From Gammaproteobacteria bacterium (GTDB taxonomy: Bacteria; Pseudomonadota; Gammaproteobacteria; JAJPIJ01): DNA of 32,061 nucleotides. The notes beneath the pieces are model-generated. The model searched no databases and was not told the DNA's origin. It worked only from the letters and a program-made list of their open reading frames with translations. Both the position numbers and the translations under genes were made by a program. Within the stretch, counting starts at the first letter, position 1, and every line of letters begins with the position of its first letter. Location: positions 1 through 32,061 of the forward strand of contig JAJVIQ010000035.1 of the NCBI GenBank assembly GCA_022071965.1. Reading direction: 5' to 3'. Below, piece after piece: positions 1-31,912 of the stretch.

Positions 1-154
1 CCCGTTGCCCCAGTTCCCGTTGCCGTTACCGTTGTTCCCGTTGCCCCAGTTCCCGTTGCCGTTGCCGTTGTTCCCGTTGCCCCAGTTCCCGTTGCCGTTG
101 CCGTTGTTCCCGTTGCCCCAGTTCCCGTTGTTCCCGCCGTTGTTGCCCCAGGCA
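1..154 (-). repeat. 36-bp in-frame tandem repeat in pilin gene
   Basis: Three contiguous 36-bp units (1-36, 37-72, 73-108) are followed by a partial, decaying copy to about 154. Units 2 and 3 are identical and unit 1 differs by one base. Each unit encodes the 12 residues NNGNGNGNWGNG on the minus strand. Near-identity at DNA level suggests recent expansion, and the array may continue beyond the window. Confidence 0.93.
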
Positions 155-690
155 TATGAGTTCTGGATCGGGGACAACGCAATCAAGGCCTTCTCGACGA
201 CTGCATACCACGTGCGGCGCTCCGCCTCCGACATGCGCGAGGACGCGGTGGACGCCTCGTTGTCCGAGAGCGGCAGGAAGCCGTTCGGGAGGAAGCATAT
301 GTATTCCGGCCCGTTGGCATTGAGATCGATGTCGACGGAGGTCGCCGGAATGACCTTCAGCACGGTGTCCGCGCCGTCCACGGCGCCCAGCGTTCCGCCA
401 TCGGTGAAGACGATGCCGCCGTCCGTCCACGAGGCGGAGTTGCAGTCGCTGCCATCGGCGCTCGGGCAGACGCTGACCAGCGAATTACGGCGGATCGCCT
501 CGCTGCGGGCATAGTTCAGCGACACGACCAGGTTGTTGGCGTCGGTCGTGAGCCGGTTCTGCTCGATGAGGTTGAAGAGGTTCGGCAGCCCCACGCCCAG
601 CAGCACGCCGAGCACGGTGACCGTAACCATCAACTCCACCAGGGTGTAGCCGCGGAGCCCGATCCTTGAATAACTGCGTTCCGGCATCAT
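1..690 (-). CDS. FimT/GspH-type minor pilin, 3' end outside window
   Basis: Minor type IV pilin or pseudopilin of the FimT/GspH kind, expected in the inner membrane and then in a pilus or secretion pseudopilus. The N-terminus has a class III prepilin signal: a short basic leader, then RG|YTLVEL at about residues 13-20 with the conserved Glu at +5, followed by a hydrophobic helix to about residue 37. The residue after the cleavage Gly is Tyr rather than the usual Phe. The middle (VCPSADGSDC, then a WTDGGIVF stretch) resembles the FimT globular domain with its cysteine pair. After about residue 180 the protein becomes an Asn/Gly/Trp repeat still open at the left edge, so 230 codons are seen without a stop. 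Start: two adjacent ATGs (690 and 687) follow AGGAGG with about 6 bases spacing. Pilin assignment is firm; pilus versus type II secretion is undecided. Confidence 0.88.
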   Translation of the reverse strand, partial: MMPERSYSRIGLRGYTLVELMVTVTVLGVLLGVGLPNLFNLIEQNRLTTDANNLVVSLNYARSEAIRRNSLVSVCPSADGSDCNSASWTDGGIVFTDGGTLGAVDGADTVLKVIPATSVDIDLNANGPEYICFLPNGFLPLSDNEASTASSRMSEAERRTWYAVVEKALIALSPIQNSYAWGNNGGNNGNWGNGNNGNGNGNWGNGNNGNGNGNWGNGNNGNGNGNWGNG

Positions 691-4867: not shown

Positions 4868-5268
4868 GGATACATCCTCATTGATTGAAACGGGCAGACC
4901 GCCCGCAGGTTGCAAGCGAACAAGTAATGTACCGGTGAGATTTTCGTACCGCCGCAGGAGGTCGAGCAAAGCTCGCAGATAAGACCACTTGAAACGACTG
5001 CAAGGGCCACAGTACACGTGCAGGGGGGTGCTGTCCATCCCTAATTTCGCCCACCTCGGGTCAAGCCGGCGGCCCGGCTCCGGAGCCGGGCTTCCGCTGC
5101 CCCCGCGGGCGGGGCGGCTGTTGCGCCACCGAGCCTTCAAGTCCATGGGCGCGCGGTCGATATGTCGGCTGGAAGGCATCGCCGGAATATGCCACCGAAC
5201 GGTCGTGGTCGTACGCGCGCCGTGCTGTCCGGATCCGCGTGTCTGAAGGACCTGAAGTCGGAGCTGGC
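4868..5268. other. Divergent intergenic region, csp / EAL-HDOD
   Basis: About 400 bases between the divergently oriented cold-shock and EAL-HDOD genes, expected to hold both promoters and the csp leader. It contains an uninterrupted 20-bp perfect palindrome at 5072-5091 (GCCCGGCTCCGGAGCCGGGC) and a small hairpin, CGGGC-AGACC-GCCCG, near 4891-4905. I could not assign promoter hexamers with confidence, and no c-di-GMP riboswitch consensus is apparent. No convincing gene is present. Confidence 0.6.
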
Positions 5269-6609
5269 ATGTTCAAGCCGCACAAATTGAAGACGACCGG
5301 GGCGCCGACCGCGCCTCCCCCACCCTGCAGCGCGGACACGCCGGGCACCGGGGTCAATCGGGAGGAGGAACGCTGGCTGCAGCCGCTGTTTCTCGGCAGG
5401 CAGCCCATCTTCGACCGCGCGCTGACCGTCCAGGGCTACGAACTGCTGTTCCGCGCCAGCGACACCGACCGCGCCGAGTTCGCCGACGGCGACACTGCGA
5501 CCGCCGACACCATCGCCAATGCTCTCCTCGAATTCGGGCTCGAGCATGTTGTCGGCGATCGACGGGCGTTCATCAATGTCACGCGCGCGTTTCTGACCGG
5601 GGCGAACGTCCTGCCCTCGCTCGGCGCCCGCCTGGTGCTGGAAGTCGCCGAGCACCAGATGGCCGATCAGGAGATTATCGCGGCGATTGCGCGGCGCGCG
5701 GAGGAAGGATACACCATCGCGCTCGACGGCTTCGTCTTCGAGGAGCGCAGACTGCCATTCCTCGCGCACGCGCAGGTCGTGAAGACCAACGTGCGTGAGT
5801 TCACCCGCAACGATCTGCTGCGCGAGGTGAGCCGGCTGCGTGCGCACGCGAACGGCGCCAGGCTGGTGGCGGTAAACGTCGAAACCGACGAGGAGTTCAA
5901 GTACTGCCGGTCGCTGGGCTTCGATCTCTTCCAGGGATATTTCCTCGGGCGCCCCGGCGTGATCTCGGGCCGGCGATTGCCCGCCGATCGGATCTCCATA
6001 ATGAAGCTGCTGGCACGGCTGCAGGATCCGGATCTGCAGATCCAGGAGCTGGAGACGATCATCGAGCAGGACGTCGCGCTGTCCTTTCGCGTGCTCACGT
6101 ACGTCTCCTCGGCTTACGTCGGTTTGGGACGCGTCATCGAATCGGTCCGCCATGCCGTGCGCCTCATCGGCATCGAGCGGATCCGCACCTGGGCGGCGAT
6201 GTTCGCGCTTTGCCGTCTCGACGACAAACCGCCAGAGCTGGTTCGGATTGCCCTGGCGCGTGCCAAGACCTGCGAGTTCCTCGGCTATGCGCTGCGCCAG
6301 GGGAAGCCCGAGCAGTTGTTCACGGCCGGGCTGTTTTCGACGCTCGACGCCCTGCTGGATCGTCCGTTGCGCGAGATCCTGGCCTCGCTCGCCCTGGAGA
6401 AGGGACTGGCCGGCGCCCTGCTCGAGAAGACCGGCCCGATCGGCGAGATCCTCGCGTGCGTGCTCGCCTGGGAAAGGGCTGATCGGGACGAGGCCACCAG
6501 GGTCGGGCTGGACAAGGGCGCCATCGGCAACGCGCACTACGAGGCGATCCTCTGGCTGGAGCGCCACAGCCACCTCTTTGCCGGCATTCACCCGCCTCGC
6601 CGGCAATAG
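5269..6609 (+). CDS. EAL-HDOD (YuxH-like) signalling protein, degenerate EAL
   Basis: Protein of 446 residues. A Pro-rich N-terminus (1-38) is followed by an EAL-like domain (about 40-245) and an HDOD domain (about 245-440), the YuxH-type arrangement. The EAL domain looks enzymatically dead: the motif is YELLF (57-61) instead of EAL, LDGF (152-155) replaces DDFGTG, and AVNVET (201-206) replaces AEGVE. INV (102-104) and LEV (124-126) are retained. QGYFLGRP at 222-229 is the usual end of an EAL fold. Such proteins act as c-di-GMP effectors or scaffolds, and HDOD domains occur in signalling and motility regulators. ATG 5269 is chosen because GGAG lies 5 bases upstream; a GTG at 5239 lacks this. 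It is transcribed away from the csp gene. Confidence 0.9.
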
Positions 6610-31183: not shown

Positions 31184-31912
31184 CTATTGCATCACGAAGC
31201 TGGTGAAGTAAATTTCCCTGATGCCCTTCTTCCTGATGGTCTTCTTCAGGACCTTCTGAATCTCCAGCAGCACTTCGTTGCGCAACGCCTCCTTGCCCTC
31301 CGGCGTGATCAGCGTTTCGTAGGTCTGCCTGCTCAGGAGCAGGATCACCGCATTGCGTATCGCCGGCATGTGCGTCTTGATCCTCTCCGCGAGCTCCGCA
31401 CTCGACGGTACCGCCTCGATCTCCACGCTGAGGAACTTGGCCTTCGGCTTCTCGCCGCCGGCGCCGGGCTGGAAGTTCACGACGAAGGCCGGGGCGAGCG
31501 GCAGATACGCCGTCTCCTCCTCGCCCTCCTCGCCGCCCTCTTCCTCGGCGGCAGCCTCCTCCTCGCCCGTCGACTCCTCATCGGCGGCCGCCTCCTCCTC
31601 GCCGCCCCCCGTCTCGGCATCCGCGGCATCGGTCTCCTCGCCGGTGGCCTCCCCGTCGGTGCCATCCGTCTCGACGGCCTCCTCGTCGGCGACCTCCTCA
31701 TCCCCGGCGGCCTCCTCCTCCGCGGCGGCCTTGGCCTTCTTCTTTTTCTTCTTGGTCTGCTCCGCGGTCTCCTTCTGCTTCTGCATGTAGAAATAGCCGC
31801 CACCGGCCCCGGTGATCAGCACGGCCAGGATCGCCGCGATGACGATGATCATCTTCTTCTTGCCGCCCTTGCCTCCTTGCGCGGGTGCGTCGTCCTTCTT
31901 TGCCTCTGTCAT
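31184..31912 (-). CDS. fliL: Flagellar basal-body protein FliL with acidic linker
   Basis: Inner-membrane protein of 242 residues supporting the stator and basal body. One membrane helix (about 21-43) follows a Lys-rich N-terminus. The FliL domain is at 135-242 (YLPLAPAFVVNFQP, then LSVEIEAVPSS and KKGIREIYFTSFVMQ at the end). Between them is an unusual linker: a run of six Lys at 54-59, then about 69 residues (65-133) made almost wholly of Glu, Asp, Ala, Gly and Thr. FliL proteins are usually about 150-180 residues, so the linker accounts for the extra length. It heads the fliLMNOPQR block, 36 bases downstream of a sigma-54 promoter. Confidence 0.95.
   Translation of the reverse strand: MTEAKKDDAPAQGGKGGKKKMIIVIAAILAVLITGAGGGYFYMQKQKETAEQTKKKKKKAKAAAEEEAAGDEEVADEEAVETDGTDGEATGEETDAADAETGGGEEEAAADEESTGEEEAAAEEEGGEEGEEETAYLPLAPAFVVNFQPGAGGEKPKAKFLSVEIEAVPSSAELAERIKTHMPAIRNAVILLLSRQTYETLITPEGKEALRNEVLLEIQKVLKKTIRKKGIREIYFTSFVMQ

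Follow-up and report, generated by a model that had tools for sequence, protein, structure and literature searches.

Does the minor pilin encoded at the left edge of this DNA end in a repetitive tail, or does its fold close beyond the repeat? The window, the whole 32,061-nucleotide stretch that was analysed, is contig C24 of genome G000 (39 contigs, 3.56 Mb). In it a prepilin gene on the minus strand runs from an ATG at 690, with AGGAGG just 5' of it, to base 1, which it reaches within a tandem repeat. The initial annotation described a FimT/GspH-type minor pilin that ends in near-identical 36-bp repeats, and both the assignment and the repeats were borne out. The leader MMPERSYSRIGLRG (649-690, minus strand), preceded by the AGGAGG Shine-Dalgarno sequence, carries the Pfam N_methyl match (22.7 bits, cut-off 21.2); the mature protein would start with YTLVE, cleavage presumably occurring before Y15 by the general prepilin rule. 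The first part of the pilin (277-648, minus strand) comprises α1 and β1-β5, ends in YICFLPNGF and matches GspH (PF12019) at 56.3 bits (5.2e-15, cut-off 21) over profile positions 2-92 of 108. Judged by these two matches, the gene is a minor pilin of the GspH/FimT type. A linker and a presumed short helix ending in ALIALSPIQNSYA follow (151-276, minus strand), and then an Asn/Gly/Trp low-complexity stretch (1-150, minus strand), whose 36-bp repeat at 1-130 is cut by the contig edge. The array is real and far above chance: 3.6 copies lie on the window side, with a 98% match and a Tandem Repeats Finder score of 253, and its translation is NNGNGNGNWGNG.

The edge of the window is also the edge of the contig (G000:C24:1), so the cut in the gene is an assembly break. 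Within its own genome the repeat occurs only on C24 and at the start of contig C19, where the same repeat continues in the same frame (G000:C19:1-519, plus strand). The C19 frame passes through the rest of the repeat, NNGN.., (NNGG)x9 and a Ser/Gly-rich linker to PSTFTFCPAGSSGKMGRMVTLSLTGHVSTSSVVCD and a stop codon. Its closing 35-residue stretch (C19:409-516, plus strand) corresponds to the last three strands of the GspH/FimT fold, β6-β8, which are absent on the window side (strands are numbered as in PMC8897410). Overlapping the two contigs by 126 bp with one mismatch gives an open frame of 360 amino acids; an exact overlap of 54 bp gives one of 384. This join appears well supported by sequence, short of proof. 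Since C19 carries an in-frame continuation ending in β6-β8, the repeat is an insert in the β5-β6 loop, which exceeds 150 residues in this gene, and no tail. A C-terminal repeat tail was rejected on these grounds; the repeat is internal, and the frame, far from breaking just past the edge, stays open across C19.

An assembly artefact, in which the repeat was collapsed or misjoined and the gene truly ends or breaks there, would fit a window that ends inside the repeat, and six genomes among those examined (G000, G001, G292, G260, G149 and G229) have a contig that ends in this stretch. However, both contig ends, of C24 and of C19, are in frame, unbroken relatives have the same plan (see below) and the corresponding region of a sister genome is homologous, which together make an artefact very improbable. 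The sister, G001, belongs to the same genus and has the same tail after a GGNT array, also at a contig start; its DNA is 76% identical over 653 bp of C19. Here the array is a different one, of the 12-bp GGNT type, flanked by a nearly identical module, in line with the earlier suggestion that the repeat varies.

Relatives were sought in 369 genomes drawn from the class searched, 79 of which had matches at E <= 1e-20, and the loci of the matches were read. A motif pattern picked 101 pilin-type frames, some of them not FimT; it displayed only odd lengths and took in no frames outside the pattern, and G292 and G369 were read separately from its list. Six complete fused genes from five genomes lie on unbroken contigs (L093, which is G048; L094; two adjacent genes in L095; L097; and G188) and share the plan of the window pilin, with other repeats. 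Together with the window gene, a fused pilin cut by the contig edge in G292 and one whose frame is broken in the first part in G369, they make up a fused set of nine proteins from eight genomes. The linkers of fused pilins differ widely (N/G/W, GGP/E, GSS, S/D, GTGS, SSSG and GGDP, and GGNT in G001), and CxxC stands just after β5 in six of the nine proteins (G292, G369, G188, both L095 proteins and L097). All nine have the short presumed helix in front of the low-complexity stretch. Counting the two units in each L095 protein, its closing motif L-x-P-xxx-[ASV]-x-A is present in 11/11 insert units, with a mean of 0.22 and a maximum of 3 in shuffled sequences; the pattern was picked after inspection and the rows compared are related sequences. 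The inserts of the window protein, L094, L095 (two), L097 and L088 gave no Pfam domain over cut-off. The β6-β8 module is about 35 residues long and holds its own Cys pair, and its profile also picks up ordinary FimT proteins at their C-termini.

Searched with a profile built from 60 related pilins, the PDB yields FimU (4ipu) at 7.8e-12, the alignment reaching the last Cys of FimU. The window protein lies on two contigs, and the fold was modelled on its relative L093. The AlphaFold2 (AF2) model has a mean predicted local distance difference test score (pLDDT) of 81; the insert scores low (blocks of about 50-70) and the last three strands, at 197-228, score high (block means of 84-93). VIA-align superposes the model (25..230) on FimU chain 4ipu_C (24..156) with a Z of 16.5 over 128 of 136 residues; for EpsH the Z is 10.9, and for Legionella FimT 10.1. 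Foldseek returned five matches below 0.001, all of them FimU chains. The architecture and the homology are shown, and the relative L093 is predicted to have a complete GspH fold, β6-β8 included, once the insert is left out. We consider it probable that the repeat is flexible and exposed, as the initial annotation proposed.

If the insert interrupts one fold, can the two parts also be found on separate genes? In five genomes of two other genera, g148 (G149, G260 and G355) and g68 (G303 and G069), two genes share the pilin between them: one encodes a pilin cut off after β5, the other a secreted protein with its own signal peptide (judged by eye and by hydrophobicity) and a C-terminal β6-β8 module. 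What lies between signal peptide and module is a GS-rich linker in some partners and a small Cys/His domain in others. In all three g148 species the pilin frame stops right after β5. The G355 partner is complete; it starts 59 bases past the pilin, behind a ribosome site of its own, GGGGAGAAG, and consists of signal peptide, GS-rich linker and β6-β8. The start and the module of the G260 partner lie at two contig ends, and in G149 the contig ends within the linker. Gene order is opposite in g68: in G303 and G069 the partner lies upstream of the pilin cut after β5, close to or overlapping it, and its signal peptide is followed by a small CH..G..C domain and then by β6-β8. The AF2 model of the split G355 pilin alone (pLDDT 95) matches FimU only over 31..118 and is without the strand seen at 109-112 in the fused model.

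With the module profile, the only match in G149 was an ordinary pilin, and none was listed for the second part of G292; in G200, the third g68 genome, only an ordinary pilin was seen and no module match was listed. Three split partners scanned against Pfam gave nothing over cut-off, and a PDB search with the G303 partner gave no match (best E 0.19). The small secreted Cys/His domain of split partners (CHIPPGNPANAH..AHLDHGD..GAC in G303) was noted in L225 and L272, on the minus strand. A further locus, L257 (G229:C32), has a D/G-rich low-complexity stretch and a β6-β8 module at a contig edge, and its first half was not identified.

Both halves of the split pilins look to be under purifying selection, as judged from short stretches. 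The rates of nonsynonymous (dN) and synonymous (dS) substitution between G355 and G260 are 0.063 and 0.355 for the pilin and 0.171 and 0.529 for the partner module (35 codons). For the g68 modules dN is 0.406 and dS 1.787, and for the tail shared by G000 and G001 they are 0.039 and 0.191. These values bear on whether the window gene encodes an ordinary modular pilin, its insert an exposed loop extension of one chain and the split pairs of its relatives unrelated or decaying. Pilins with grafted domains are described as widespread (PMC8179133), and the fused proteins are each read from one open frame. However, split pilins stop where fused ones are interrupted, their partners have a signal peptide and exactly the missing module, two gene orders occur, and both parts seem to be under selection, so that this explanation seems to us unlikely.

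A further question is whether the fused pilins remain single chains. Signal peptidase I, or some other protease, may cut them where the insert helix ends in AxA, leaving two chains held together by β6-β8, which would be compatible with the loop insert that we favour. The signal peptidase I rule calls for small residues at -3 and -1. Every one of the 11 insert units has A, S or V at -3 and A at -1, with Pro at -7, and a true signal peptide occupies the matching place in the split relatives. Yet hydrophobicity is far lower in the insert helices (their best 10-residue Kyte-Doolittle mean is 0.62-1.85, against 2.38-2.91 for the signal peptides of split partners), and several of these helices are interrupted by charged residues. 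We hold such cleavage to be possible but doubtful.

On balance we consider it probable that the window gene encodes a minor pilin whose β5-β6 loop insert serves as a flexible, exposed display, and that β6-β8 is a docking piece completing the pilin, whether in cis or in trans. In this proposal a long insert has taken the place of the loop; it consists of a short helix ending in an AxA-type sequence, followed by a fast-changing low-complexity repeat. The pilin part would anchor in the pilus or at its tip, the repeat would protrude as a flexible exposed loop presenting sticky or spacer sequence, and β6-β8 would close the pilin fold after the insert. In split lineages, the secreted second protein may supply β6-β8 and so complete the truncated pilin in trans. 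Because relatives carry the module on a separate secreted protein, it could serve as a tag by which a linker or a small domain is docked onto the pilin. We offer only tentatively the wider scheme of a two-part display, in which secreted proteins tagged with β6-β8 complete the pilin, linkers and small domains are exchangeable on the pilus while the pilin gene stays unchanged, and the fused forms, including that of the window, are cut at AxA into two chains after export.

Several observations weigh against this proposal. The C19-C24 join rests on 54 exact bases, or on 126 with one mismatch. In G001 the tail stands at a contig edge and no first half was found in that genome. One pilin that ends right after β5 (L119:3908-4294) comes from a genome with no β6-β8 module match anywhere. 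In a tree of the first parts neither the insert type nor the split type forms one clade, and the deep forks are weak; the two split groups stand apart, both with good support, and an ordinary pilin groups with the g68 pair. A single origin of the insert or split types is not shown by this tree. Finally, the docking of a partner on its truncated pilin in trans is what we infer.

The window gene adjoins an OpgC-like acyltransferase and a GGDEF-EAL response regulator. The genome has three matches to the GspH profile; the initial annotation had raised the prospect of similar tails on neighbouring minor pilins, but the other two matches, both on contig C5, are ordinary open frames of 219 and 218 amino acids. 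Contig C5 holds an ordinary pilin cluster, which includes the paralogue and, close by, three more pilin-type frames, and the window gene is therefore an extra minor-type pilin. A first scan of genome contigs with the window pilin gave no relative, nor did a scan of viral contigs. The low-complexity stretch breaks assembly in the six genomes listed above, and the family is therefore easily missed.

A family of membrane proteins with conserved FDITxExNxPT and DDxxxxHER motifs was met at L095:4932-5657 (minus strand), L219:1324-2106, L220:4350-4814 and L099, about 4953-5740 (minus strand); those scanned gave no Pfam or NCBIfam name over cut-off. Such a protein adjoins the pilin in four lineages (L095, G369, G188 and G355). 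It occurs in 9/369 genomes and is absent from G000, G048, G149 and G292, and at eight places read (including G083 and G207) no pilin-type frame lay near it within the stretches fetched. Since it is rare and stands without a pilin-type frame at these eight places, we rejected it as a part of the system. Near the right end of the window, at 31525-31731, lie several overlapping, GC-rich tandem repeats of 15 to 36 bp.

Like FimU, FimT and GspH (PF12019), the pilin has an N-methylation motif and a GspH domain, and its relative L093 matches FimU in full when the insert is skipped; unlike them, it has a β5-β6 loop exceeding 150 residues. The β5-β6 loop of Legionella FimT is part of the DNA-binding surface, and tail arginines are named for DNA-binding FimT (PMC8897410). 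An arginine-rich DNA-binding C-terminal region was looked for by sequence; the protein ends in TGHVSTSSVVCD, with no arginine there. The modular pilins PilB and PilC of Streptococcus sanguinis likewise present an extra piece on the filament (PMC8179133). Unlike in these, the extra sequence lies inside the fold, is mostly of low complexity and in some lineages is carried on a second gene.

Split pilins as such are known; new here is a GspH/FimT pilin interrupted or split at β5/β6, with an exchangeable stretch. Among the papers listed in the literature searches, whose coverage excluded most subscription journals, none describes a split or loop-inserted GspH/FimT pilin. The arrangement points to a means by which secreted protein stretches could be attached to pili. 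If correct, it would mean that type IV pili can have strands completed in trans at a site other than that used in Geobacter, in a class of subunit believed to lie close to the pilus tip, and it would offer a natural means of displaying foreign sequence on pili. The closest precedent appears to be the split PilA-N/PilA-C of Geobacter sulfurreducens. Two adjacent genes build one pilin fold there, the second with its own signal peptide, and the gene order is reversed in some species (PMC5174107 and PMC11046646). Our split relatives are alike in this: their two genes hold complementary parts of the pilin fold, the second with a signal peptide (G355, and in reversed order G303 and G069), whereas the window gene is fused. 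The Geobacter break follows the N-terminal helix part of a major pilin (61 + 104 amino acids), whereas that of the split relatives follows β5 of a minor-type GspH/FimT pilin. Again unlike in Geobacter, a strand module of some 35 residues closes the fold, and a variable linker or a small domain precedes it.
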